Assembly (NCBI RefSeq): GCF_000661915.1
Contig: NZ_CP007509.1
Span: 3,303,501 to 3,367,500 of the forward strand
DNA: 64,000 bases
Direction: 5' to 3'
Origin: Stutzerimonas decontaminans
GTDB taxonomy: Bacteria > Pseudomonadota > Gammaproteobacteria > Pseudomonadales > Pseudomonadaceae
The notes below the pieces were generated by a model. That model made no database searches, was not told the DNA's origin, and worked only from the letters and a program-made list of their open reading frames with translations. A program made the position numbers and the translations under genes. How positions within the stretch are numbered: the first letter of the stretch is position 1; each line of letters opens with the position of its first letter. Of the stretch, positions 10,985 through 63,390 are shown one piece after another.

Positions 10985-11058
10985 GCGGGCGTCGTATAAT
11001 GGCATTACCTGAGCTTCCCAAGCTCATGACGAGGGTTCGATTCCCTTCGCCCGCTCCA
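10985..11058 (+). tRNA. tRNA-Gly (anticodon CCC)
   Basis: A 74-nt cloverleaf: acceptor GCGGGCG/CGCCCGC, anticodon stem TGAGC/GCTCA with loop TTCCCAA (anticodon CCC), T-loop TTCGATT and an encoded CCA. Its 3' half is the attachment site of the 39.5-kb prophage and the gene remains whole. Confidence 0.96.
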
Positions 11059-49112: not shown

Positions 49113-50312
49113 CTATGGCTTCACGCCAGCCACATCTACAAGCCAGGTAGCCCAATCCTCGAGGCCCTGGCTTTTTTCTTTCAGGTAGTCGTAGCGGTCA
49201 TAGTGCTTCGACGAAACATCGCTGAACGCATGCCCCTGGATGCGATCGCGCAGTTCCTTGCTGATCCCCGCCACACCCATCAGCGTTTTGCAGGTTCGCC
49301 GCAGGTCGCGCAGCGTGAATGGCGTCTTGAACGTGTCCGGGTGCCGCGCGCAAAGCTTCGTCACCGCCCTCGACACGGACTGGACGTTGATCGAGTTGTT
49401 CTTGTACCGGCCCATGAACGGAAAGGCCTCTTCGCCGGAGATCGGTTTCAGCCGCTCCAGGCATGCGCGGCTCAGGCCGTTGAACGGCACCACATGAATC
49501 TCGCGCTCGCCTTCTACGCCCTTCTTGCTGCGGATCATGTAGTAGTCGTCGCGGTACATGGTGCGGTCTGACGCCACCACCTGCTCCGGCCGCTGCCCGC
49601 CGCTGGCGATCAGGAACTTGATCAGCTCCGCCGTGACCAGGCTCAGCTCCTCGGGCAGCAGGTTCCACAGCGCCGCCAGCTCTTCCTTGCTCAGCACGCG
49701 CTGGCCGGGGCGCTCCCAATCGCCCTGCACCGGGATGCTCGCCACCGGGTTATAGGTCAACCCGAAGCGCACCTTCGACTTGAGGTAGTCCCGCGGGTTG
49801 TATTCCTGGTTGAGTCCGTGCTGGAACGCAGCATGCAGCTGCGACCGCACCCGGTTGCAGTAGGTGGTCACCTTCGCCTTGATCATCGCGGAGATAATGT
49901 CCCGAATATCCCCGGGCTCGATGGCACTGGCCAGTTTCTTCACCAGGTGCGGGAACGGCTCAGAGACATAGTGCTTTAGCGACCACTCCACGTTGCCGGC
50001 CGAGGCCGCGCCTTCGGCTTTCAGCTTGGCCACATACGAATCGAGCAGGTTCTGCAGCGTGCCCTCCGCTTCACTCTGCGGCGACGCACCCTTGCACTTG
50101 TCCCGCGCAACGGTGAGCGACATCGTTGGCCACACACCGAGCTTGCGTTGCTTCTTCTTGCCGGCCACGAACCACTGGTAGTAGAACTCCTTCGTGCCGT
50201 TGGAGCGAACCTTCAGCAGCAGCACCCCTTCCCCGCGCGCACCGCGCCCGTCGGACATCACATAGTCGCGGTCTTCTGGCTTGAGCGAACGGATCTGCTT
50301 TTCGGTTAGCAT
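49113..50312 (-). CDS. int: Tyrosine integrase of the mosaic prophage
   Basis: 399 aa from MLTEKQIRSLKPEDRD. N-terminal DUF4102-type arm-binding domain, core with Arg in GGQRPEQVV, the LRDLRRTCKT motif and a C-terminal GHAFSDVSSKHYDRY holding the Tyr. Lies 154 bp from attR; matches the tRNA-Gly integration seen here. Confidence 0.95.
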   Translation of the reverse strand: MLTEKQIRSLKPEDRDYVMSDGRGARGEGVLLLKVRSNGTKEFYYQWFVAGKKKQRKLGVWPTMSLTVARDKCKGASPQSEAEGTLQNLLDSYVAKLKAEGAASAGNVEWSLKHYVSEPFPHLVKKLASAIEPGDIRDIISAMIKAKVTTYCNRVRSQLHAAFQHGLNQEYNPRDYLKSKVRFGLTYNPVASIPVQGDWERPGQRVLSKEELAALWNLLPEELSLVTAELIKFLIASGGQRPEQVVASDRTMYRDDYYMIRSKKGVEGEREIHVVPFNGLSRACLERLKPISGEEAFPFMGRYKNNSINVQSVSRAVTKLCARHPDTFKTPFTLRDLRRTCKTLMGVAGISKELRDRIQGHAFSDVSSKHYDRYDYLKEKSQGLEDWATWLVDVAGVKP

Positions 50313-50465
50313 GCGTGACAGTTTCCGGTGACAGTTGTCCCGAACTAACACGAAATTCGGCGGGACAGAATGAGACTGAGCCGGAAGCCCCAGCCCATAC
50401 AGGACGGGGATTGTAGCGCCTTTACGATACCTCGCGTTATACCCTGATATTTGGCCCGTTATAGA
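50313..50465 (-). promoter_or_regulatory. int upstream / att arm region
   Basis: No gene. Expected site of the int promoter and arm-type integrase sites; no clear repeats noticed. Confidence 0.35.
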
Positions 50466-50511
50466 TTCCCAAGCTCATGACGAGGGTTCGATTCCCTTCG
50501 CCCGCTCCAGA
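50466..50511. repeat. attR: 46-bp direct repeat
   Basis: Identical to 11015-11060 (tRNA-Gly 3' half). It also marks the left edge of the filamentous prophage. Confidence 0.95.
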
Positions 50512-51328: not shown

Positions 51329-51619
51329 TCAGACGGACGATAGCGCCTGGATGACGTGCTTCGGATCGTTATGGATGGCGCGCAGCAGGGCCTTTGCTGG
51401 TCCGGTCGGTTCGCGTCGGCCTTGTTCCCAGTTACGCAGCGTACCCAGTTGAACGTCGATCATCGCTGCGAATTTGGCCTGGGTCAGCCCGGTCGCCTTG
51501 CGGATCTCTTTCACCTGCAGCGAGTCGACGACGAATTCCCGCGAGGGCTGACGTTCGCCACGGTGAATCTCGTCCATCTGCTGGACGCTTTCCAGAAGGT
51601 CTTCGAAGAATTTGCTCAT
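51329..51619 (-). CDS. HigA-type antitoxin (Xre family)
   Basis: 96 aa from MSKFFEDLLESVQQM, GGAGGT upstream. HTH: VKEIRKATGLTQAKFAAMIDVQLGTLRNWEQGRREP. Pairs with the toxin upstream, 5 bp away. It should neutralise the toxin and repress the pair. Confidence 0.9.
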   Translation of the reverse strand: MSKFFEDLLESVQQMDEIHRGERQPSREFVVDSLQVKEIRKATGLTQAKFAAMIDVQLGTLRNWEQGRREPTGPAKALLRAIHNDPKHVIQALSSV

Positions 51620-51624
51620 GGTGA

Positions 51625-51939
51625 TTACCTCCACCGTTCGATGATTTGCTTGAGCACCTTGCGCTCGTCTGCCGTCAGGTCGTCCTTCTCGTTCTTCGGA
51701 TAGATCAGCAGTAATGCGATCTGCGAAGCCGCCGTGAAGTGGTAGTAGATGACCCTGGACCCGCCCCGCTTGCCGTGACCACCAGACGCAACGCGAACCT
51801 TGCGAATGCCGCCAGTACCTTCAATCACATCGCCCATGTCCGGCCGGTCGGCCAGTTGCCGCTGAAACTCCGCATAGCTGTCATCGCTAAGCAGCTCCCG
51901 CAGACGCTTGGAGAAGATCGGTGTCTCGATAAAGATCAT
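51625..51939 (-). CDS. RelE/HigB-type toxin
   Basis: 104 aa. FSKRLRELLSDDSYAEFQRQLADRP, the core GGIRKVRVASGGHGKRGGSRVIYYH and LLLIYPKNEKDDLTADERKVLKQII are typical of HigB/RelE mRNA interferases. Toxin first, antitoxin second, as in hig loci. Pf phages often carry a TA pair here. Confidence 0.9.
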   Translation of the reverse strand: MIFIETPIFSKRLRELLSDDSYAEFQRQLADRPDMGDVIEGTGGIRKVRVASGGHGKRGGSRVIYYHFTAASQIALLLIYPKNEKDDLTADERKVLKQIIERWR

Positions 51940-51983: not shown

Positions 51984-52991
51984 TTACTGGCAGGCGAGCG
52001 GTAACGTGATGCCGGCCAACGGTCCTAACCTGATCGCATCATGCAAATGCTCAGGCGCGAGGTGTGCGTAGCGCATCGTCATGTTCAGCGAGGCATGCCC
52101 CAGGATCTCCTTCAGCGTCACGATATGGCCACCGCCCATGATGAAGTGAGCCGCGAAGGTGTGGCGCAGGATGTGGCTTGCTTGTCCGCGTGGTGGCTTG
52201 ATCGAGGTCGAGAGCAGGACCAGCCGAAACACGCCAATGCAGTTGGTGAACGGCCCGTAGGTTTGCCAGTGCTTCTTGATCGCCGCCACCAGCTCGGGCG
52301 TTACTGGGACCATCCGCACCCGCTTCGACTTGGTATTGGCAAACACCAGGGCGTTGCCTCGAATCCGCTCCGGTCGAAGCGCTTGAGCCTCACCCCACCT
52401 CGCCCCGGTCGCCAAGCAGACCCGCGCCACCATCGCCGGATGCGGAGACGTGGTCCGCGCCAGAAGTGCATCGAGCAGCTCGGAGATCTGCGGCTTGGTC
52501 AGGTAGGCCAAGGGCCGTTCCTGCAACCGAACCGGACGAATACGTGTGAACGGACAGGGATAGTCGATCACGTCGAGTTTGTGCAGCTCGTTGTAAACCG
52601 CTTTCAGGTAGCCAAGGCGATTGTTCGCCGTCTTGCCGGTGACACCAGCTGACATCCAACGCGCGCGCGTGGCGGCGATCTTCGCGCCATCGACCATACG
52701 TGCTATCGGATCGCCCATCGCCTTTGCACACGCCCGCAGGATCGCCACACGACGAACGCCATCGGAGAGCGAGACGCCGTGAAGGTCGAACCATAGCTCG
52801 ACCAGCTCTGACAGCCTGCGCTTGTCCTTTGGCCGCGGTGCCCAATCGTTAGATTCGCTGCACTTGGCTCGACAGGTCGCCTCGAAGCGCATTGCCTCGG
52901 CCTTGGTCTTCAGCGTCTTGCGGAACCGCTTGCCTTTGACCGGCTCGACGTCGACCCGCCAGCGACCGTCAGAGAGCTGCTGGATCGCCAT
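51984..52991 (-). CDS. Tyrosine integrase of the filamentous prophage
   Basis: 335 aa from MAIQQLSDGRWRVDVEPVKG, which overlaps the Rep stop. Arg in ATGARWGEAQ, HILRHTFAAHF, LGHASLNMTMRYAHL with catalytic Tyr: all integrase residues present. Equivalent to Pf IntF. Confidence 0.93.
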   Translation of the reverse strand: MAIQQLSDGRWRVDVEPVKGKRFRKTLKTKAEAMRFEATCRAKCSESNDWAPRPKDKRRLSELVELWFDLHGVSLSDGVRRVAILRACAKAMGDPIARMVDGAKIAATRARWMSAGVTGKTANNRLGYLKAVYNELHKLDVIDYPCPFTRIRPVRLQERPLAYLTKPQISELLDALLARTTSPHPAMVARVCLATGARWGEAQALRPERIRGNALVFANTKSKRVRMVPVTPELVAAIKKHWQTYGPFTNCIGVFRLVLLSTSIKPPRGQASHILRHTFAAHFIMGGGHIVTLKEILGHASLNMTMRYAHLAPEHLHDAIRLGPLAGITLPLACQ

Positions 52992-54268
52992 CAGACCGCT
53001 CTGCCCCATCGAACGTGGCGTTCTTGAAGCAACGTTTTGATGTGCTTGTACAGATCACGCTCGCTCATGTCCTTGGCGGCGTAGTGGTCACGAATGACCG
53101 GCCAGCATTCCCAATCCTTCAGTCGATCAAATGCGGTTTTAGCGCCCACTCGCTCCCGTGCCAGCAGGCTTACGAAGTTTCCCAGGAACAGTTCCACGTT
53201 CTTGCCAGAGAAGCCCCGTGAAGTCTTGTAATAGCGTTTGTACTCCGTTTCATCGACCAGAGAATCGACCGCCACATCGACCCGCACGTCATCACGCATC
53301 AGCGTCCAGATCGGTTCGTATTGCCCTGGGCGGTGCAACAACTTGAACTGGCAAAGCCCGTAGCGCCACAGGCCGTCCAAGTGGGCGGAGAACGCTGCAA
53401 ACGAATTCGTTTCAATGGCCTCACCGGTCTTGGCACTGATCGACCCGCTAGCGAACTGCTGGATGACCGAATGGTGATAGCGCAGCTCGACCCGCCATAC
53501 ATCTTGGGTCGGGTCGTAGTTATCGGGATCGGTCGAATCGAACGAATCACGGCGATGCCAGACACTTTCCCAGAAGTCGAGCTTATCGGTCGCGCGGGCC
53601 TGTTCGGTTTTGTTGTAGATGCAGAGCTGAACGCCACCAGCAGAGCCGAACATGGACGTTTCACCACGACCGTAGACGCTGGACTTGGTCGCCCAGTTGA
53701 TCTCGTTGATACCCGAGATATCCCGGTGCGTCCGCGCGCGACAGTGCAGGCGTGCCACCAGATCCACCGGAGGCTTCCAGCCCTGAAGATCCAACGCCAG
53801 ATGGACAGCGCACTGGTTGCGTTCGCGGTGTGTCATCACGGCTGCAGCGTAGTAGTCCATCCGCTCTTGCAAGCGCTCAGGCGACAGCGCGTCGATGGCG
53901 TGCGGCGACACTTCGATTTTCAAGTGCGGGCCGATGTTCTCGAGCTTAGCGTTGAAGTTCTTGATGAGCAGGATGAACCCGAGGTCAGCATTCTGGAGCT
54001 TGTACTGGTAGCCCGAGTCCCGCCCTACTCGTCCGGCGTGCCAGAACTCCCCGGCGAACTCGACCATGACGCCCGGTTTCTCGAACAGCGCCATGATCTC
54101 TGGACGGATCAGGCCGCGGTACAGCTGGCGGACCGTATCGACGCCGCAACGCAGCAAGCGAACGCCTGACAGGTCAGTCAGCTTGGCCGAATGGCTATCG
54201 AAGAACAGTCGCCCGGTTAGGGTTTCTTGGAAGTTCTGATCAACACGAATTTGGTCTTTAACGCTCAT
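52991..54268 (-). CDS. Replication initiation protein (filamentous phage gpII-like)
   Basis: 425 aa from MSVKDQIRVDQNFQETL with GGAG upstream. A phage/plasmid replication protein of the Pf/gII type: FAGEFWHAGRVGRDSGYQYKL near residue 75, AVHLALDLQGW, then QLCIYNKTEQ. It nicks the double-stranded form to start rolling-circle synthesis. Just before it lies the 54337-54410 hairpin. Confidence 0.85.
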   Translation of the reverse strand: MSVKDQIRVDQNFQETLTGRLFFDSHSAKLTDLSGVRLLRCGVDTVRQLYRGLIRPEIMALFEKPGVMVEFAGEFWHAGRVGRDSGYQYKLQNADLGFILLIKNFNAKLENIGPHLKIEVSPHAIDALSPERLQERMDYYAAAVMTHRERNQCAVHLALDLQGWKPPVDLVARLHCRARTHRDISGINEINWATKSSVYGRGETSMFGSAGGVQLCIYNKTEQARATDKLDFWESVWHRRDSFDSTDPDNYDPTQDVWRVELRYHHSVIQQFASGSISAKTGEAIETNSFAAFSAHLDGLWRYGLCQFKLLHRPGQYEPIWTLMRDDVRVDVAVDSLVDETEYKRYYKTSRGFSGKNVELFLGNFVSLLARERVGAKTAFDRLKDWECWPVIRDHYAAKDMSERDLYKHIKTLLQERHVRWGRAV

Positions 54269-54291
54269 TCTCTTGTGCTCCAAATTGCAAC

Positions 54292-54313
54292 GAATTGACA
54301 CTGTTCAGTTGGG
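54292..54313. repeat. 22-bp repeat copy A (before Rep)
   Basis: GAATTGACACT plus 11 partly conserved bases; 18 of 22 match 58664-58685. Lies 24 bp before the Rep start. Possible promoter or protein-binding site. Confidence 0.6.
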
Positions 54314-54415: not shown

Positions 54416-55600
54416 TCACCACAGGAATTTCCCCTTCTCATAGGGCACCACGACCACGGACGAGCCTTTAGGGGCTGACTGCAGGCCGCTGGCGACCGCC
54501 TGTTCAAATGCCGGAGGCGGACTGCTGGCGTGCATCGGCCCCTGCGGCGGTTCTGGGTCGGGCTTGGTGTCGTCGAAGTAGCCGTTCTGCACGACCGACC
54601 TGCAGAAGCCGAACGACACATCCAGGCGCGTGCCTTGTTGGGTGTTGCATCGACACCCCGTCAGCCCTTCATCGCTGTCGCCGACCTGCATGCGTTTGTA
54701 GTTGCGGGCGATCAGGTCGCGGTCGGTGGTGGCGATGCACACGGGCTTCGGGAAGGTCTGCGGTCCGGTCAGTGCGTCATACACCGGCGCTGATGCCGGC
54801 AGGTCCTGCACCCTGGGCACGCGCTTGCCCAGATATTGCTCGACGGTGAGCGGTGCGGCCTGTTCGGTGTCGGCGCTTGGCCGGATGAAGGCGCCGACCG
54901 TATCCCGCACCTGATCGACCATGCTGCCGGCCGGCGCGCTGGTTGCGGTCGCGGCTTGCGCTTTCTCGGCTGCGTAGCGCTCGTAGGCGCGATAAACGAG
55001 GATGCCGGCACCCACCAGCACGCAGATGGCCAAGATGAACTTGGTCGGCACCTTGGCCTGGAAGTGGTGCTTGGCGTTGCTGCTGGTGTAGGCACCGAAG
55101 TAGCGCTTATCCAGGCGCAGCGACTTTTTGTCGGCGTCCTTGAAGCTGGTCTTCAGCTCGACCTTCTCTACGACGACTTCCGACTCGAAGCGCAGCAGTT
55201 GGGCGGATTTGAAGACGCGCCAGTAGTGAATGTGCGTGTTGCACAGCCGACGAAGGTGAACATCGAGATAGCGCGGGTCCTGGGTGACGAGGTGAACCTC
55301 ATGGCCCTGGTGGCGCATGGTCTCGAAGCGGGTGATGTGCTCCGGTGGCCGCGCCCGTGGATCGCGTGAACCGAACCAGCCCTGCGCTTCGTCGACGACG
55401 ATGATCGAATCGTTCGGCAGCTCGAACCACTTCTCGGGGTCTTCGAACTCGAACCACTGCGCTTGCAGCTGATCGGGTTTGAGGCCGTTGATGTTGTGGA
55501 AGTAGACGACACGGCCTTCGGCGTGGGCCTTCTGGTCGACCTCGCGGATGGTGTTCAGGGTCTTGCCATGGCCGGGCTTGCCGGTACGGATAACGAGCAT
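54416..55600 (-). CDS. Zot-like assembly ATPase (pI)
   Basis: 394 aa. Walker A GKPGHGKT (7-14), Walker B SIIVVDEAQ, then a single membrane helix (about 187-204) and a periplasmic C-terminus. It drives extrusion of filamentous phage through the inner membrane. No secretin gene is seen, so it presumably uses a host secretin. Confidence 0.93.
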   Translation of the reverse strand: MLVIRTGKPGHGKTLNTIREVDQKAHAEGRVVYFHNINGLKPDQLQAQWFEFEDPEKWFELPNDSIIVVDEAQGWFGSRDPRARPPEHITRFETMRHQGHEVHLVTQDPRYLDVHLRRLCNTHIHYWRVFKSAQLLRFESEVVVEKVELKTSFKDADKKSLRLDKRYFGAYTSSNAKHHFQAKVPTKFILAICVLVGAGILVYRAYERYAAEKAQAATATSAPAGSMVDQVRDTVGAFIRPSADTEQAAPLTVEQYLGKRVPRVQDLPASAPVYDALTGPQTFPKPVCIATTDRDLIARNYKRMQVGDSDEGLTGCRCNTQQGTRLDVSFGFCRSVVQNGYFDDTKPDPEPPQGPMHASSPPPAFEQAVASGLQSAPKGSSVVVVPYEKGKFLW

Positions 55601-55612
55601 GACGGCGCCTCC

Positions 55613-55939
55613 TTATGCGTCGATGGAGGTGCCGCCCGGCTTGCGCCAGACCTGATTGCGGCGACGGTCAGTTGCCTTGTCGATCCCGGCGAGCATGAAG
55701 CGCGTCGAAATGGCGGCGAAATACAGGTTCACCACCACATCGAACTTGGCCAGCCCGAGAACGCCCTGGATCACCGGCCCGACATCACCCATCAGCCCGA
55801 ACAGGTAATCCTGCGCCTGGCCAATGATGAGGTTGAAGCCCAGGTAGGTGACGAAGCCGAAGCCGAGGATCTTCAGCACCATCTTCACCAGTGGGCCGAG
55901 GATGATGACGAGCATCTGCACGAAGAAGAGAAACTGCAT
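55613..55939 (-). CDS. Minor coat protein pVI-like (DUF2523)
   Basis: 108 aa, three hydrophobic segments (MQFLFFVQMLVIILGPLV, GFGFVTYLGFNLIIG, VVNLYFAAISTRFML). DUF2523-type, at the place of Pf pVI, between pIII and Zot. Shares a base with the pIII stop (start 55939). Confidence 0.85.
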   Translation of the reverse strand: MQFLFFVQMLVIILGPLVKMVLKILGFGFVTYLGFNLIIGQAQDYLFGLMGDVGPVIQGVLGLAKFDVVVNLYFAAISTRFMLAGIDKATDRRRNQVWRKPGGTSIDA

Positions 55940-57309
55940 TACTGACCTCCTACGCCGCGACCCACATACAGGGCAGCGAGAACGGTAGCCACAGCCACGA
56001 ACAGGCCGCTCAGGTCACTGGCGGCGCGACAGAGGGGCTCGTAACTGATCTGGAAAGAGCGCCCGCCACCGGTGCGCAAGCTGAAGCTTTCGGCGCTGGG
56101 GCAAGTGGCAGGCAGAAAGCGAGTGCCCTGGTTGACGAAGGACGGCAGCTGAATCTCGGCGCCTTCCTCGAGCTTGAACTTGTCGCCCTGGACGGCGGAT
56201 TCGATGGCCGGTTTGTGCTTCTCGAAGTCGGCCTGTTCTTCGGCGTGGCAGCGCAGTTCCTTTTGCTGGCGGAGGATCGCGCACTGGACGGCATCGCCGA
56301 CGCACTTCACCTCGGCATCACAGGCTTCGCCTTCTACGCCGGGCTTCTCGCACTTGTAGGGGTCTTTGGCAGGGTCGCATTTGCCATCGCCTTCACCTTC
56401 ACCTTCACCTTCACCTTCGCCCTCACCGTCCCCTTCGCCTTCGCCTTCGCCTTCGCCGTCTCCCTCACCATCTCCCTCGCCTTCACCATCTCCCTCGCCA
56501 TCCCCATCGTCGTCCCCATCCCCTTCGCCGGGTTCCTCGGTGTTGTCACAGCCGCCCACCTCGACCTCGGGATCACATGGCGGCGGCGGTTCCTTGCTGC
56601 AATAGGTGCCGTTCCAGGCATATCCGTCTGGGCAGTTGTTATCGGGATCAGGTGTTGGGGTTTCGTCGGGGTCGGTCTGCTGACCGGGATTGCCCGGTTC
56701 CTTGCGGGTGTCTTCGTTGCACTCGACGCCGTTGCCGGTGTAGCTGTAAACGCCAAACACGCCCGGCGGGTTGCCGCTGCTGTAGACGTAAACGTTGGTG
56801 GCCGCAGTGAAGCCAAAGGCGTACTGGCAGCTGTTGGCGCAGACCGAACCCGGCGGTTCGATCACCGGCTGGCCTACCGCTTCTTTCATCTTGTGTTCGT
56901 GGGTGACGACCTGGCCGATGGTGGCTTCGCAGCGATTGGGGGCCTCGCACAGTCCGGTTGAAGCGTTGTAATTGGCGCCGTTAGGGCAGCTATCGCCTGA
57001 GCGAGTGGCACGCCGAGGTGTGCCCGAAAGGATGTAAGTGGGCGAGCCATCCTGTCCGGTACTTTTAGTGGTGCGAATGAAATAGCACCAGTACTGGGTC
57101 GGGGTCGCAAACTGGGCATAGGCATGCCGATAGGAGTAGTTGTCGCTTTCGGCAGGAACGTAGTTTCGGCAGGCGGTTTCCGGATCAGGGTACTGGGTTC
57201 CGCCAGTTGTGGTGGTCCAGTAGTAATCAACCGCAAATGCCGGATTGACGAGAAAGAGCGAGGCGGCAACCAGCGCAACTGACGATAAGCCGCGACGAAT
57301 AATGGACAT
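55939..57309 (-). CDS. Adsorption/attachment protein pIII (CoaA-like)
   Basis: 456 aa from MSIIRRGLSSVALVAASLFL with GGAGG upstream. Sec signal, N-terminal Cys-rich domains, a GE/GD-only linker (about residues 258-305), a C-terminal domain and a final membrane anchor. Tip protein that binds pili/receptors and anchors the phage end. Cysteine pairs are numerous. Confidence 0.88.
   Translation of the reverse strand: MSIIRRGLSSVALVAASLFLVNPAFAVDYYWTTTTGGTQYPDPETACRNYVPAESDNYSYRHAYAQFATPTQYWCYFIRTTKSTGQDGSPTYILSGTPRRATRSGDSCPNGANYNASTGLCEAPNRCEATIGQVVTHEHKMKEAVGQPVIEPPGSVCANSCQYAFGFTAATNVYVYSSGNPPGVFGVYSYTGNGVECNEDTRKEPGNPGQQTDPDETPTPDPDNNCPDGYAWNGTYCSKEPPPPCDPEVEVGGCDNTEEPGEGDGDDDGDGEGDGEGEGDGEGDGEGEGEGEGDGEGEGEGEGEGEGDGKCDPAKDPYKCEKPGVEGEACDAEVKCVGDAVQCAILRQQKELRCHAEEQADFEKHKPAIESAVQGDKFKLEEGAEIQLPSFVNQGTRFLPATCPSAESFSLRTGGGRSFQISYEPLCRAASDLSGLFVAVATVLAALYVGRGVGGQ
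56378..56540 (-). repeat. Hexamer-repeat tract encoding an acidic glycine linker
   Basis: Variations of CCTTCA/CCTTCG on the plus strand repeat over about 150 bp and translate on the minus strand as (GEGEGDGE)n. Equivalent in place to the glycine linkers of M13 pIII. Repeat number can change by slippage. Confidence 0.85.
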
Positions 57310-57317
57310 TACGCCTC

Positions 57318-57389
57318 CTACACCCGCCCAAAAAACACGAGATAAAACGCCAGGGTGGTGAGGATCAGGACGTACAGTTCGTAGCTCAT
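57318..57389 (-). CDS. Tiny membrane protein between pVIII and pIII
   Basis: 23 aa, MSYELYVLILTTLAFYLVFF then GRV. One hydrophobic helix; ends 8 bp before pIII. It fits a minor coat protein (pIX-like) or leader. Too short to assign by sequence; no other evidence. Confidence 0.5.
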   Translation of the reverse strand: MSYELYVLILTTLAFYLVFFGRV

Positions 57390-57408
57390 GGCGTTTCCCT
57401 GGAAGAGA

Positions 57409-57430
57409 AAACCCCGCCGGAGCGGGGTTT
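57409..57430 (-). terminator. Terminator after the major coat gene
   Basis: AAACCCCGC/GCGGGGTTT with TTTTCTC on the minus side. Filamentous phages place a terminator right after gene VIII to raise its level over pIII. Confidence 0.9.
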
Positions 57431-57464
57431 GTTTGCTTCGGCACATGCAGTGCGCGGTTCCCGG

Positions 57465-57674
57465 TTACAGGGCGCGGCGCATGTACTTGAACGCCATCGC
57501 GGCGATGATCACGGCGAACACCGCCCAGCCGATGGTGCCGACGTCGGTGCCCGCGGTATCCAGCGCCGCGGTGGCTTCGGCCGGGACTGCCGCGTAGACG
57601 GAGCCGGCAGCAGCCGAGAGGGCAACGGCAGCGCCGAGGCCGATTTTCTTGATGAAGTGCTTGTTCAGTTGCAT
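57465..57674 (-). CDS. Major coat protein pVIII (CoaB-like)
   Basis: 69 aa precursor. Signal peptide 1-28 (KKIGLGAAVALSAAAGSVYA), mature protein acidic N-terminus (VPAEATAALDTA), membrane helix (IGWAVFAVIIAAMAF) and basic end KYMRRAL: the classic major coat plan. Terminator follows. Confidence 0.93.
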   Translation of the reverse strand: MQLNKHFIKKIGLGAAVALSAAAGSVYAAVPAEATAALDTAGTDVGTIGWAVFAVIIAAMAFKYMRRAL

Positions 57675-58091: not shown

Positions 58092-58451
58092 TTAGTTGGC
58101 CTTGGCCGGGTCGCCGGCTTTGGCCTGGGGTTGAGCTGGGGTGCGCGGGGTTTCAGCAGCGACGCGGGTCTGAACGGCTTCGAGCTGGAGCGCCAGATTC
58201 TTGCCCTTGTTCTGCCCACCACGGGCAATCTCGAAATGGATACGCACCAGTTGCAGCGGCTCGAACTTGGCGCCGGCTGCGAAGATCTCGTCGGCTACTT
58301 CGTCCGCTGCTGCCATGCCGATGATCGACAGGCCGTGTTCGGTCTTGCCGTCCGGCTCATCGCCGTAGAAGACCTTGATGTACTTCTGGCCGGCTTCGCC
58401 GTCGAAGCGTTGAGTGCCGAGAAATGCAACTTCCATAGTCGAACGTGCCAT
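58092..58451 (-). CDS. ssDNA-binding protein pV (DUF1293)
   Basis: 119 aa. MEVAFLGTQRFDGEAGQKYIKVFYGDEPDGKTEHGLSIIGM matches the Pf1 pV/DUF1293 family. It coats single-stranded phage DNA before assembly. C-terminus is proline/alanine-rich and disordered. Confidence 0.88.
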   Translation of the reverse strand: MARSTMEVAFLGTQRFDGEAGQKYIKVFYGDEPDGKTEHGLSIIGMAAADEVADEIFAAGAKFEPLQLVRIHFEIARGGQNKGKNLALQLEAVQTRVAAETPRTPAQPQAKAGDPAKAN

Positions 58452-58720: not shown

Positions 58721-59122
58721 TTAACACCAAGGGCTCTGCCCTTGTAATCCCGCTCTTGCCGCCGAGGGCTCGGGAGCGCGGGAGGGAAAAGCGCTCCCGC
58801 ACTCACGAGCGGAGGCTGTTTCGGTTCGTGCAGGGTCAAGGGTGCGCTCCGCCCGTGCTTCCGTTCGCCGGATCGGTGAGGCGTGATCCGACGAGCCGGG
58901 AGCGCGGCCCTGGACCTGTTCGGCTGCGCGCTCAGCCTTATAACGCTCAGCGACATAGCGACGCAGCTCGACGAGGGACCGGTGTTTCGTTGGCTCGCCG
59001 CCATCCAATGGAATGAACAACGGAACGTCGCGGCGATAGGTAACGTGCCCGTACAGCTCTCCGCCAACGGTCAGCTCCCGCCCGATCTCATGCCAATTAG
59101 GCGACGCGATACGAACCTGCAT
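58721..59122 (-). CDS. Unknown filamentous phage protein
   Basis: 133 aa from [17 protein letters not shown], 11 bp after the preceding stop. [32 protein letters not shown] is the conserved-looking part; the tail is Arg/Ala-rich and low in complexity. A longer frame to 59515 exists but collides with the 112-aa gene. Function unknown. Confidence 0.6.
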
Positions 59123-59511: not shown

Positions 59512-59685
59512 TCATGCGGAGCGCTCCTGTTCATTGGTGCTGGGCGCAACCTGGGCGAAGGACGCTTCCAGGCGGATGACGATTTCGGCGTTCAGGGAGC
59601 GGCGAGCAGCCCAAGCGGACTGCTCGACCTGGGCGCGGAGTGCAGCAGGCATGCGCAGCTTGAATTGCGGGTCTGTGCGGCTCAT
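59512..59685 (-). CDS. Arc-type ribbon-helix-helix regulator
   Basis: 57 aa. TDPQFKLRMPAALRAQVEQSAWAARRSLNAEIVIRLEASF is the Arc/MetJ DNA-binding fold. ATG overlaps the previous stop. Confidence 0.85.
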   Translation of the reverse strand: MSRTDPQFKLRMPAALRAQVEQSAWAARRSLNAEIVIRLEASFAQVAPSTNEQERSA

Positions 59686-59831
59686 TGGTTCACCCCCGGA
59701 AACCGCACCAGACGGGTGTTGGCCAGCTTCACGCTCTCGACGGCGCCAGTTCTGACCCAGCCAGCGACCATATCTACGGATATACCGGCCAGAGCGGCGA
59801 AGGCGGCTTGCGTATAGAGAGGAGGATTCAT
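59682..59831 (-). CDS. Small HTH protein
   Basis: 49 aa, MNPPLYTQAAFAALAGISVD then VAGWVRTGAVESVKLANTRLV: an excisionase/MerR-like helix-turn-helix. Linked by ATGA overlaps on both sides. Unknown role. Confidence 0.75.
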   Translation of the reverse strand: MNPPLYTQAAFAALAGISVDMVAGWVRTGAVESVKLANTRLVRFPGVNQ

Positions 59832-60043
59832 GCAGTCCACTCCTGTTCCAACAGCCAGCTACGCAGCAGCGCACTGTTAATCATGCGGCGCTTGCCGAGC
59901 TTTACGGTGGGGAGTACGCCCCGGTAGACCCAGGCGCGGGCCATGGAGCATGTCAGGCCATTACGTTCCGCCCAGGCTTCGACGGTTTCCACGTCCTGCT
60001 GTGGGGCGATCAGCTTTGAAGGTTCTAGCTCTTCCAGTTCCAT
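59828..60043 (-). CDS. Excisionase-like regulator (XisF-like)
   Basis: 71 aa. VEAWAERNGLTCSMARAWVYRGVLPTVKLGKRRMINSALLRSWLLEQEW is a winged HTH of the excisionase type. It is divergent from the repressor, as XisF4 in Pf4, and first in the replication/excision operon. Confidence 0.82.
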   Translation of the reverse strand: MELEELEPSKLIAPQQDVETVEAWAERNGLTCSMARAWVYRGVLPTVKLGKRRMINSALLRSWLLEQEWTA

Positions 60044-60084
60044 GCTCGTTCCGTCACTATTCGTGGCAGTAAGCGCACCTGCGC

Positions 60085-60150
60085 TGATGAATTATTTATC
60101 ACGGGGCAAATGTACCAGTGATGAACTATTTATCAATAAATTATTCATCA
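60085..60150. promoter_or_regulatory. Pf-type immunity operators
   Basis: TGATGAATTATTTATCA (60085), TGATGAACTATTTATCA (60119) and a reversed, 14/17 copy at 60134-60150 in the AT-rich gap between xis and repressor genes. Confidence 0.8.
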
Positions 60151-60169
60151 TTGTTAAGAGCTTTTTGGA

Positions 60170-60439
60170 ATGATAGAAGAGCGGCTTAGAACGCTTGTTC
60201 GTCATCTCGGCGCGACAAAGCTGGCCGAAAGCACCGCTATCAAGGAACGCCAGCGATGGCAGACCGTAGCGACCAATAGAAAGGTGAAAGCCAGGATCGA
60301 AGACATGGAAGAGCTGCTGAAAGCTTTTCCGCAGTACGAGCTTTGGCTTTGGAAAGGCGAAGTCGATCCGGCCCAGGGGCAATACTCTCCAGGCTATGAA
60401 GAGGCCCATTCAAACTTGCCCAATCAAAGCGCGGTATAG
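60170..60439 (+). CDS. Pf-type repressor C homologue
   Basis: 89 aa. An N-terminal helical DNA-binding region (ERLRTLVRHLGATKLAESTAIKERQRWQTVATNRKVKARIEDMEELLKAFP) like the Pf repressor. The place, divergent from xis with operators between, fits the immunity repressor. RT follows 81 bp downstream on the same strand. Confidence 0.8.
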   Translation: MIEERLRTLVRHLGATKLAESTAIKERQRWQTVATNRKVKARIEDMEELLKAFPQYELWLWKGEVDPAQGQYSPGYEEAHSNLPNQSAV

Positions 60440-60520
60440 CACTTACTAAAGAAGTAGCTGATAGATGGTATGTGTATGGAAAGCGCAGATTTTGAACAGC
60501 GCGGTCAGTAGACAAGGACA

Positions 60521-62137
60521 ATGGAGCCGGCCATGGACGATATAAACCCTATTGACAAAAACAGTATATCTAAAGATTTTGTTCTAGAGGCATTAACAAG
60601 GTGGAATTACTTTCCCACTCAAAAAAAAGAAAATGAGTACACCCCTCTATTACATAGCAAAAGCTTCACCCCGCTCGTTACAAAGGAACTGTCTAATCTA
60701 AACCTAACAAAAAACGAGCTAAAGTATGGTTTTGACCAAGTGGAGTTTAGACTAACGCGCCACAACTCCACTTCAAGAATACTATCAATACCTCACCCCC
60801 ACGCATACGCCATACTCTGCCACACGCTATTCGAAAACTTAGACAAAATAGAAAGCGCCACTCAAATATATAAAAACGAAAACAGCATAATAAAACCCAG
60901 CCAAGATTATGGCGATAAAATAATAACAATGGATTATGAAGACCCTCTAGAAAAAACCAACAGACTAGTCGAACAAAGCTTCGGCAAAAAGTTTATGGTT
61001 AAAGCAGACATAAGCAACTGCTTTCCTAGCATATACACACATGCATTACCCTGGGCCTTGGTTGGTTTTGAGCATGCTAAAGCGAACCGAAGCAAGGATC
61101 TTTGGTTCAACAAACTGGACACTAATTTAAGAACTATAAAAAGAGGAGAAACTCAAGGCATCGGGATCGGCCCGGCAATCTCAAACTTTATTGCCGAAAT
61201 AATACTCTCCAAGATAGATCAGGAACTTCGTCAAAAATACGCATATTATCGCTATATCGATGATTATACGTGCTATGCGAAAGACCACAGTGAAGCCATT
61301 AGCTTTATCTATGACCTTGAGAATCAGTTAAAAAGATTCAAGCTCACCTTAAACCCTCGTAAGACAGAGATTCTTGAGTTGCCATCGAGTAACGCTTGTT
61401 CCTGGGTTATAGAGCTCCAATCCAGAAGCCCTATCGGTTACTTAACTACAGAAAGCAACGAAACCATAAGCATCAAACATAGCGCTCGCGATGTCATTAG
61501 GCACCTAGAGCTAGCTCTCCATCTAAATAAAAAAGACCCCGACGGCAGCGTGCTTAAGTTCGCTGCAAAGTCAGTCATGCACCGATTAGATAGCGATGCT
61601 AAAGAGCCTTTTACACACTACCTACTGAATCTGTCATTCACCTATCCGCATTTACTTCCATTGCTCGACTCAATTTTATCTGACAGTGAAGTCAACGCCG
61701 AGAAATATACCAGACACCTCAATGATATTTTGTTAGAAAATTATCATCTCGGCCGCTCCGATGGTATGTGCTGGCCCCTTTACTACATCCACAAACACAA
61801 ACTCAAATTAGAAAACAAAAGTGCCGAAGCGATTGTGAAATCGCAAGACTGCACTGCACTTTTGCTGCTAGAGCACTTTGAAAGCTACCATGGAGCATCG
61901 ATCCCATTAATAGATAGTCTTGAAGAAGGCTATGACCAGCATAGATACTGGCTACTAACCTATCAACTTCTAAAATGGGGGAGATTAGCAGAAAAGCACT
62001 TAACACCAGCCTATGAAGTTATGCTCAAGCACGAAGTTAGTTTTTCTGCTCTCGACCAACAAACAGGACATTCAGAACAACAATTCGAAGCCATGAAAAT
62101 TCAGGCGCTATTCTCAGAGGAGCAACTCCCCTTCTAA
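60521..62137 (+). CDS. Reverse transcriptase of the defence (Abi/UG) type
   Basis: 538 aa. RT core: motif A KADISNCFPSIYTH with Asp163, motif B QGIGIGPAISNFIAEIIL, motif C YRYIDD with Asp247-Asp248. The C-terminal 250 residues are helical, as in Abi/UG antiviral RTs that lack a group II intron maturase or retron partner. AT-rich. Pf4 has an RT gene (PA0715) at the same end. Class and template unknown. AAGGAC precedes ATG 60521. Confidence 0.88.
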   Translation: MEPAMDDINPIDKNSISKDFVLEALTRWNYFPTQKKENEYTPLLHSKSFTPLVTKELSNLNLTKNELKYGFDQVEFRLTRHNSTSRILSIPHPHAYAILCHTLFENLDKIESATQIYKNENSIIKPSQDYGDKIITMDYEDPLEKTNRLVEQSFGKKFMVKADISNCFPSIYTHALPWALVGFEHAKANRSKDLWFNKLDTNLRTIKRGETQGIGIGPAISNFIAEIILSKIDQELRQKYAYYRYIDDYTCYAKDHSEAISFIYDLENQLKRFKLTLNPRKTEILELPSSNACSWVIELQSRSPIGYLTTESNETISIKHSARDVIRHLELALHLNKKDPDGSVLKFAAKSVMHRLDSDAKEPFTHYLLNLSFTYPHLLPLLDSILSDSEVNAEKYTRHLNDILLENYHLGRSDGMCWPLYYIHKHKLKLENKSAEAIVKSQDCTALLLLEHFESYHGASIPLIDSLEEGYDQHRYWLLTYQLLKWGRLAEKHLTPAYEVMLKHEVSFSALDQQTGHSEQQFEAMKIQALFSEEQLPF

Positions 62138-62193: not shown

Positions 62194-62904
62194 ATGAGAT
62201 CAGATTGGGATGATGCACCCGATTACCTACGCAACAGAAAGCAACCGAGCCCTTGGCGATTCCTGGCGATCCTGGGTATCGGTTCCGCGGTACTGTCAGC
62301 ACTGGCGTTTACGTTCGGCAAGCCGGTTGTACTGGACGTAAACCAGATCAAGCAAGGCATCCATGTCGGCGGCAAGCCTTGGTTTAACCAAGAGCCAGAG
62401 CAGCCCATACAGCCGGATAGCCAGCCTTCCGTTGCAATCTACGAAGCCCCGGCAGCAGAACCAACACCAGCGCCCCAGCAGCGACAGCTGAGCCAGGAAG
62501 AAATCGAATGGTTCGAAGAGCGCACAGCAGAAGCGGTTCAGCCCCGTCAAACATCGTTTAACGATAGCAACTACACGCCCCGCCCCGTCGCCAACACGAT
62601 GCAGCCACCACCGGCCCGCTACTATGCAGCCAGCTCCACCAGCAGCACGCAAAAGCGCTCCGTTTCCCGCCAGACTCACCTCAGCAACTGGAGCTGGGAA
62701 AACGGCCACAACAAACAGCGCATCAGCGGCCAGTTTGAGTGGACAGTGGTAAACGGCCAGATCGACTACAACAGCGTGTGCCAAAACTACAAACGCGGCT
62801 CGCTGGTCTACCGTGACTGCCGTAAAGGTGCGAAGGTTGCGTTCAAGAGGATGTGCAGCCGGTACAAACCGGCTTGCGCCGCTGAAAATAATTACCTGCC
62901 ATGA
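62194..62904 (+). CDS. Single-pass membrane protein with Cys-containing C-domain
   Basis: 236 aa. Cytoplasmic RSDWDDAPDYL start, one membrane helix (about 22-42), proline/glutamine-rich linker and a C-terminal domain (WENGHNKQRISGQFEW...CRKGAKVAFKRMC) with four cysteines. AAGGAGG precedes the ATG. I have seen similar pseudomonad proteins near islands but know no function. Confidence 0.75.
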   Translation: MRSDWDDAPDYLRNRKQPSPWRFLAILGIGSAVLSALAFTFGKPVVLDVNQIKQGIHVGGKPWFNQEPEQPIQPDSQPSVAIYEAPAAEPTPAPQQRQLSQEEIEWFEERTAEAVQPRQTSFNDSNYTPRPVANTMQPPPARYYAASSTSSTQKRSVSRQTHLSNWSWENGHNKQRISGQFEWTVVNGQIDYNSVCQNYKRGSLVYRDCRKGAKVAFKRMCSRYKPACAAENNYLP

Positions 62905-62907
62905 AAT

Positions 62908-63390
62908 ATGTCTAAAGCACCTAGAAAAATCATCTACTCGAAGTACCTATTCCACATTTCTATTGCATGGCTTGTGATCGGCATAGCGCTAGGCCACCTC
63001 TTATGTTTCATAACCCCTAGCGAAATAGGCAGCATCAATTCTTACACATATATTAGCCATTTAACTGAAAATAGCAGGTTAGCTACCTCAATTACAATCG
63101 CTCACACTGCCTTACTACCAATAGCAATAATCTTGATTAGGCGCTATGGATTCACCTCAATATCTATCCCAACGAGAGGACGCATACTTTTATTAATCAT
63201 TTCGCTTCCTTTCCTCCCAGCATCATTAGGCCTTTTACCAGCGAGCGAAGGTACAAAATACCACGGATTAGCCATGACTATGGCTACATATCTAGATTGG
63301 TTCGGCGCCTCGTTATTTCTTTTTCTTTTTATGTGGGTATTCGCCTTTTCGGTTTCGGCGGCGTGCTCTAGGAAAACTAGTTCTGGCTAG
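62908..63390 (+). CDS. Four-helix membrane protein
   Basis: 160 aa with four predicted membrane helices and short loops. It starts 3 bp after the previous stop, so the two are coupled. AT-rich. Not recognised. Confidence 0.65.
   Translation: MSKAPRKIIYSKYLFHISIAWLVIGIALGHLLCFITPSEIGSINSYTYISHLTENSRLATSITIAHTALLPIAIILIRRYGFTSISIPTRGRILLLIISLPFLPASLGLLPASEGTKYHGLAMTMATYLDWFGASLFLFLFMWVFAFSVSAACSRKTSSG

Follow-up and report, generated by a model that had tools for sequence, protein, structure and literature searches.

The reverse transcriptase (RT) family DRT4 is described, in the available parts of two accounts, as a single-gene system that makes random single-stranded DNA (ssDNA) without a template; a phage protein, ORF55, guards the 3' end of this product, and toxic ssDNA builds up (PMC13213688; PMC13314766). 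The second account adds a priming tyrosine (PMC13314766), an excerpt of a further paper counts DRT4 among the hexameric RTs (PMC13174585), and for one characterised DRT4 a trigger protein is described in the same partial sources. Pf phages with defence systems have already been published (PMC11878078, in part). Their accessory genes are placed beyond int and the repressor gene (PMC7549136, in part), and the defence cargo named in the excerpt of PMC11878078 comprises a retron in PfAC01, Gabija in PfAC02b, IetAS in PfAC08 and Avs in PfAC11; as at the locus reported here, these are Pf-type prophages with defence systems as accessory genes. Pf4 of PAO1 likewise has an RT as an accessory gene adjoining the Pf repressor, since PA0715 (called reverse transcriptase) and PA0716 are placed beside pf4r in the passages available. 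PAO1 is listed there with one Retron I-B (PMC11878078); this is probably the same gene as PA0715, in which case the RT of Pf4 would be a retron.

The window, by which we mean the whole 64,000-nucleotide stretch of the Stutzerimonas decontaminans contig NZ_CP007509.1 that was analysed, contains an RT of a different kind. In our reading, to which we give a probability of roughly 0.8, this is a complete DRT4 antiphage gene, carried as low-GC cargo by a Pf-type prophage next after the immunity repressor, expressed while the lysogen is quiescent and acting as a template-free ssDNA defence. The comparisons below establish its family, catalytic residues, modelled fold, carrier and slot, and they support the antiviral reading. 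The RT family is already known; the filamentous carrier is unusual, and a partial search of the literature found no published report of DRT4 in a filamentous phage. With this locus, the defence genes carried by ssDNA phages would include a polymerase that makes DNA without a template. The RT and its catalytic motifs lie at:

60521 to 62137, plus strand: DRT4 (UG15) reverse transcriptase, 538 aa (NF041749, PADLOC, PDB and fold match)
61007 to 61009, plus strand: motif A Asp163, invariant in 28/28 aligned family members
61253 to 61264, plus strand: YIDD motif, Tyr245-Asp248, with D247 and D248 invariant in 28/28

The NCBIfam model for Drt4 (NF041749) gives 604.8 bits, above its curated cut-off of 450, whereas the remaining eight NCBIfam models listed for the protein all score under their own cut-offs; those for Drt3b, group II, Drt3a, the St85 retron, Drt5 and Drt2 (29.4 bits against 390) are far under. 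PADLOC assigns Drt4 at 5e-183, with Drt6 as the next family name at 1.7e-87, and the best PDB sequence matches are UG15/DRT4 (2e-91). A group II intron RT was rejected at 53.0 bits against a cut-off of 300 (TIGR04416), Pfam at E values up to 1 giving RVT_1 and one sub-threshold match, and a St85-type retron RT at 35.7 bits against 235 (NF038233), with no match in Rfam. A first-pass annotation, made from the letters alone, had described an antiviral-class RT with intact motif A Asp163 and YIDD, a long helical C-terminus, no maturase domain and no retron partner, and this is confirmed here: the class is DRT4, not group II intron or St85-type retron, the three aspartates are retained, the C-terminal half is helical in our model, the Pfam search returned no maturase domain, and the St85 and Rfam searches indicated neither a retron RT nor an msr-msd RNA. 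In PDB chain 9vdv, titled catalytically inactive DRT4, both aspartates aligned with D247 and D248 are altered, and thus the window RT keeps residues whose loss killed that enzyme. Judged by its sequence, the protein is a member of the known DRT4 (UG15) family with intact catalytic residues. Translation may begin at ATG 60533, which follows a GGAG at 60523-60526 as read by eye from the DNA, and not at ATG 60521; the product would then have 534 aa.

An AlphaFold model of the window RT as a monomer (28 sequences) has a mean pLDDT of 88.7 and a pTM of 0.88. Its closest fold match is DRT4 9vdo, with a TM-score of 0.85 by query and 0.93 by target over 499 columns, and this match, together with the secondary structure of the model, places the helical C-terminal domain in the DRT4 arrangement. 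UG15 9l9s, DRT6 9wy8, and then AbiK and Abi-P2 follow. The window RT therefore resembles the solved DRT4/UG15 proteins (PDB 9vdo, 9vdv, 9l9s, 21ou) in profile score, fold, catalytic residues and single-gene organisation, at 36-37% identity in the fold alignment, and differs from them in its place, behind the repressor of a filamentous phage. DRT6 (TM 0.76/0.83; 23% identity) and AbiK (TM about 0.64/0.59; about 16% identity) share the related class 1 fold and are not the family matched.

Phylogenetic placement in the UG/DRT tree, which had been proposed as a check, puts the window RT inside the DRT4 rows: in a tree of 37 rows it pairs with a Pseudomonas sp. SLFW DRT4 (L100) at 100/100, within a 23-row DRT4 set at 95/93. 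Drt3b, Drt8 and UG17 are the other classes represented, along with one row resembling DRT6 and an RT without assignment (L007); the outgroup rows are long-branched, and we do not rely on the order among them. Named retron and group II intron RTs are absent from the tree, and those classes are therefore excluded by the profile scores only. The DRT4 alignment comprises 23 of 80 kept loci (L100-L123 without L113) and five other rows, the 80 being drawn from 204 relatives found in an alignment-based scan of genome contigs; the same scan with the single RT protein gave 21 pattern matches and no relative. In the phage collection the RT matched 9 records, none covering 80%, 1 of 207 plasmid records covers 80%, and in 97 genomes all other matches are partial. 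The SLFW protein, the closest named relative found (about 52-53% identity), seems to be prophage-borne too, but its carrier would be tailed, not filamentous, its neighbours resembling tail genes by eye; UmuC is also suggested by eye among the adjoining ORFs, possibly of a tailed prophage. Beside the DRT4 relatives in 116 loci (E 1e-4) we found no Zot, repressor, excisionase or P0003, the conserved gene that follows the RT in the window, and integrase was the sole inovirus hallmark (16 loci, 15 of them viral contigs).

The carrier had been called a filamentous prophage, and PHROG matches to integrase, Zot-like, minor and major head or coat and Cox-like excisionase proteins uphold this. Its parts in the window are as follows:

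50483 to 50510: left attachment repeat, 28 bp (right copy past the window end, 64696-64723)
51329 to 51939, minus strand: toxin-antitoxin-like pair adjoining the integrase (51329-51634: phrog_2104, weak regulator matches)
51984 to 53009, minus strand: tyrosine integrase (phrog_1 integrase, 2.9e-70)
52991 to 54301, minus strand: replication initiator (phrog_1159, 6.6e-206, no function given)
54416 to 55600, minus strand: Zot-like assembly ATPase (phrog_197 Zot-like, 8.7e-84)
55613 to 55939, minus strand: minor coat protein (phrog_1242 minor head protein, 2.9e-25)
55939 to 57444, minus strand: coat protein A-like, by position as in PfAC08 (phrog_4352, 9.1e-98, function unknown)
57465 to 57674, minus strand: major coat protein (phrog_7106, 1.1e-26)
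58092 to 58451, minus strand: putative ssDNA-binding (gene 5-like) protein, by position (phrog_15465, function unknown)
59828 to 60043, minus strand: excisionase, transcribed away from the repressor, an arrangement shared with Pf phages (phrog_575 Cox-like, 6.5e-4; phrog_1864, 3.3e-32)
60170 to 60439, plus strand: Pf4r/Pf6r-type immunity repressor, 89 aa (PDB, phage records, phrog_147)

Both the gene set in Pf order and the tRNA attachment repeat of a Pf-type inovirus are present, the gene 5-like protein being matched weakly (a 42-aa alignment with Pf1 gene 5 at E 0.005). Between 51984 and 60043 the gene order is that of Pf phages, as for example in PfAC08, where the excisionase/repressor order is the same and the gene aligned with 52991-54301 is annotated as a replication initiation protein; the phages nearest in DNA are mostly from Pseudomonas. 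The repressor has two PDB matches at E up to 0.01, Pf6r (4.8e-14) and Pf4r (4.2e-13), and matches in 23 phage records, the best at 77% identity. The 28-bp repeat, whose right copy (696-723 of L327) is given on the window scale, bounds about 14.2 kb. A 26-bp core of the repeat recurs as the 3' end of the tRNA-Gly(ccc) that lies at 10985-11058, which suggests two elements lying in tandem at this tRNA. Three copies of the tRNA-Gly(ccc) 3' end were noted (10985-11058, 50483-50510 and 64696-64723), as was what appears to be an island of roughly 39 kb in tandem with the Pf-type prophage, with a second integrase-like ORF at 49113-50351 recognised by eye. As to the toxin-antitoxin-like pair, the annotation of a related plasmid stretch includes a RelE/ParE toxin and NadS, and Pf4 is described, in the text available, with a Phd/ParE-type pair at the matching position. 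A further stretch of about 200 bp at 58723-58924 is 85-89% conserved with Pf phages and plasmid records and is strongly foldable as ssDNA (z -3.27); it is perhaps a replication origin or packaging signal.

A separate inovirus contig (L011), found with the RT itself, encodes an RT protein 100% identical to that of the window. The two are 98.7% identical over 59544-62137, which takes in excisionase, repressor and RT, against 83-89% in the remaining aligned parts, so that this block seems to have moved as one unit between related phages. Downstream of the RT the following genes are found:

62194 to 62904, plus strand: P0003, downstream bound of the cargo slot (phrog_7381, function unknown; conserved)
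62908 to 63390, plus strand: P0004, accessory protein of 160 aa, judged hydrophobic by eye (3/26 viral loci have homologues)

A P0003 homologue directly follows the repressor in PfAC08, PfAC05 and ZS-PA-05, which differ from the window in that the slot between the two genes is empty and further genes come after the P0003 homologue. We surveyed this slot in 50 loci, namely 26 viral contigs with a P0003 relative, 20 same-genus stretches from 19 genomes and 4 phage records; P0003 itself occurs in 24 of 56 genomes of the genus (E up to 1e-8, the window's own included). The slot is empty in 7 loci (54-61 bp), filled in 34 (0.5-3.9 kb) and unbounded in 9, in which no Pf4r-like repressor was found. 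Filled here means 150 bp or more, so that L045, where the slot has a single short ORF (204 bp), is counted, and as the viral and genus sets share prophages (L021 and L080 look alike), the 34 are not independent insertions. GC in the slot is 0.38-0.51 in 31 of the 34 filled loci, and in the window it is 0.41 for the RT cargo against 0.61 for the phage core. Some larger slot ORFs of L091 and L092 are on the opposite strand. P0004 has no family match at E up to 1; its homologues are in L021, L026 and L029, within the slot in L026. An RT match (E 1e-3) was found in 0 of the 46 loci of the viral and genus sets.

Of 37 slot proteins scanned with Pfam, the RT among them, 4 are Arc-like DNA-binding proteins; in the accessible part of PMC7549136, an Arc variant replaces the repressor gene in 12 of 182 Pf prophages. 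Twenty cargo proteins, chosen mostly from the larger ones (10 genus, 10 viral), were compared with defence systems. Among the genus proteins PADLOC names 3 of 10 (TIR/STAND in L084, HEC-01A in L088 and 'beta'/PD-Lambda-2 in L089, the last two from loci without a bounded slot), Pfam adds PIN_8 in two (L082, L083), and five have no match in either. For the viral proteins PADLOC gives four clear matches (DzbA, DzbB, NsnA/PD-T4-2 and PDC-M28C, the last in L019, a locus without a Pf4r-like repressor), two weak ones and four with none; the 36 viral slot proteins scanned as a set include GmrSD_N in two and HEPN, NACHT, PIN and PLD-like domains in one each. A precise cargo slot, from repressor to P0003, is thereby delimited, and its unnamed genes are candidate new defence systems. 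Slot cargo without a PADLOC match was noted at L081:8422-9462, L085:7746-9494, L090:7353-8231, L092:8147-8968, L093:8690-9421 and L030:6586-7980, the first five without a Pfam match either, and these are candidates for new defence genes.

The position and strand of the RT behind the repressor suggest expression in the lysogen: it would be co-transcribed with the repressor and hence present while the prophage is quiescent. By analogy with the described family, it would work as a hexamer, use a tyrosine of its own as primer and polymerise random template-free ssDNA, which host exonucleases would normally clear; no tyrosine of the window RT could be assigned to the priming role. The DNA-binding protein of an invading phage would shield the 3' end, the DNA would accumulate and halt the growth of the infected cell, and the population and the resident prophage would be protected. 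Since the carrier makes ssDNA of its own, such a weapon might also harm the carrier, which poses the question of how a phage with an ssDNA genome tolerates or uses a weapon yielding ssDNA stabilised by a phage DNA-binding protein.

Filamentous phages make ssDNA-binding proteins in quantity, and this counts towards a different role, in which the RT chiefly serves the prophage: when a filamentous phage replicates, either the prophage itself on induction or a superinfecting relative, the RT would sense that phage's ssDNA-binding protein and arrest runaway ssDNA replication, as a governor of lysogeny or superinfection. The place of the RT behind the repressor and the nearly identical block shared with the second inovirus contig fit such a role, and the available parts of the DRT4 accounts report that toxicity needs ssDNA ends protected by a phage DNA-binding protein (PMC13213688; PMC13314766). 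However, only its position and a weak match identify the gene 5-like protein of this prophage, and the lack of an RT in its place in the 46 related loci argues against a general governor of this kind; we regard this role as unlikely. We give little credence to the RT being an inactive passenger, recently captured and silent or non-functional in its host: its low GC and its rarity in the 97 genomes and the 46 related loci would suit a passenger, but its frame and catalytic residues are intact, and the identical protein occurs in a separate contig whose backbone is 11-17% divergent.

The RT does stand 81 bp downstream of the immunity repressor on the same strand, as the first-pass annotation had it, and the suggestion made there that this gap or the 3' region could hold a template RNA did not survive. 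The 81-bp gap is not empty; it is mostly taken up by a conserved, out-of-frame tail of the repressor:

60436 to 60495, plus strand: conserved -1-frame tail over the repressor stop, 19 codons and TGA (in 76/81 regions)

An RNA-templated DRT or retron-like system with its template in either place has very little to recommend it: DRT2, DRT3 and DRT9 use ncRNAs according to the available part of PMC13213688 and the upstream gap is conserved among relatives, but that conservation is the -1-frame tail, present too in relatives without this RT, DRT4 is reported to be template-independent, the St85 and Drt2 scores are far under their cut-offs, and both gaps fold like shuffled sequence (z -0.45 for the upstream 81 bp, with 58 of 200 shuffles at least as stable, and z +1.60 for the 56 bp that follow the RT), with nothing from Rfam in either. 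Within the scope of known RNA families and folding energy, the RT is a single gene without an ncRNA, as DRT4 is. A promoter scan gave 5 promoter-like sites against 4.5 expected.

The repressor tail is a less expected and more novel result than the RT. In the window it reads IALTKEVADRWYVYGKRRF, then TGA, leaving 25 nt to ATG 60521. Among 127 loci with a repressor match, 119 had enough sequence (8 were left out) and yielded 81 distinct 90-nt regions, of which 76 keep the tail, counted as 12 open codons together with RWY, RWF, RWH or QWY; such openness is matched by 115 of 3000 shuffles and so does not itself strengthen the case. The consensus is about IAITxEVARRWYAR, and the tails run to 14-23 residues (75 measured, with a filter of 12-45 codons). 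Within the codons of the -1 frame, variation peaks at the third position (mean entropy 1.00 vs 0.54 and 0.51; column shuffle p 0.009). Averaged over all pairs of the 81 regions, the amino acid identity of 12 codons comes to 0.59 for the -1 frame, with 0.38 for frame 0 and 0.41 for +1. Shuffling of column order, which preserves relatedness and base identity, gave 0.418 (sd 0.040) and reached 0.59 in 0 of 3000 trials; for 34 regions thinned to at most 80% identity the value is 0.43 vs 0.274 (sd 0.034), again with 0 of 3000. Changes from the consensus are synonymous in the -1 frame in 235 of 454 cases vs 181.3 expected and in frame 0 in 108 of 407 vs 76.3, a relative excess larger than that of the -1 frame, so this test does not discriminate for the tail. 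The -1-frame identity, 0.64 after the repressor in this count, falls to 0.08 after P0003, 0.23 after xis, 0.37 after ssb and 0.22 after zot in the same loci, although the DNA there is less conserved too (0.26-0.52 vs 0.62), which keeps this comparison from helping the case. Openness of the -1 frame does not set the repressor apart either, with 62/67 after xis and 17/17 after zot next to 74/79 after the repressor.

These patterns make the tail a candidate for ribosomal frameshifting or coupled reinitiation. An independent start for the tail was rejected for relatives such as L021, where a -1-frame stop lies directly ahead of it and is followed by no ATG, GTG or TTG. The repressor stop stands in the context GGA TAG C in 68 of 81 regions and GGA TAG A in 6, which would permit slippage from GGA to GGG ahead of the stop; we did not accept P-site slippage at GGA as the sole mechanism, because the window reads GTA TAG C at this place and one relative reads CGA TAA C. 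We consider it about evenly balanced whether Pf-type repressors come in two forms, some ribosomes shifting by -1 at or immediately before the stop (usually GCG GGA TAG C) and adding the tail, with translation coupled to the cargo of the following slot. In 12 of the 74 cases measured, the stop codon of the tail shares bases with the next start codon that opens a frame of at least 60 codons (distance -4); 5 of the 81 regions have no tail, and some phages can thus do without it. The tail peptide matched 7 phage records; in the three whose annotation was inspected there is no in-frame fused tail, and the peptide starts where the annotated repressor CDS ends and continues in another frame.

Were the two-form repressor true, the amount of a potentially suicidal DRT4 would be tied to translation of the repressor, DRT4 being the slot cargo here. 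Work on Pf4r and Pf6r, crystallised short, may then have overlooked a long isoform (DNA looked at: Pf1 and PfAC phages). The Pf4r structure work used tagged short forms, and its structure section, the part available, makes no mention of a tail (PMC8402870); in our literature search, neither the titles and abstract openings of the papers found nor passages of two of them name such a tail. The tail gives a testable prediction on Pf immunity repressors, relevant to biofilms and chronic infection. In L295 (1400-2000), a phrog_147 repressor of another family ends in KAG-stop and has a -1 continuation, VIARKAIDRGWFREQ, like the Pf tail.
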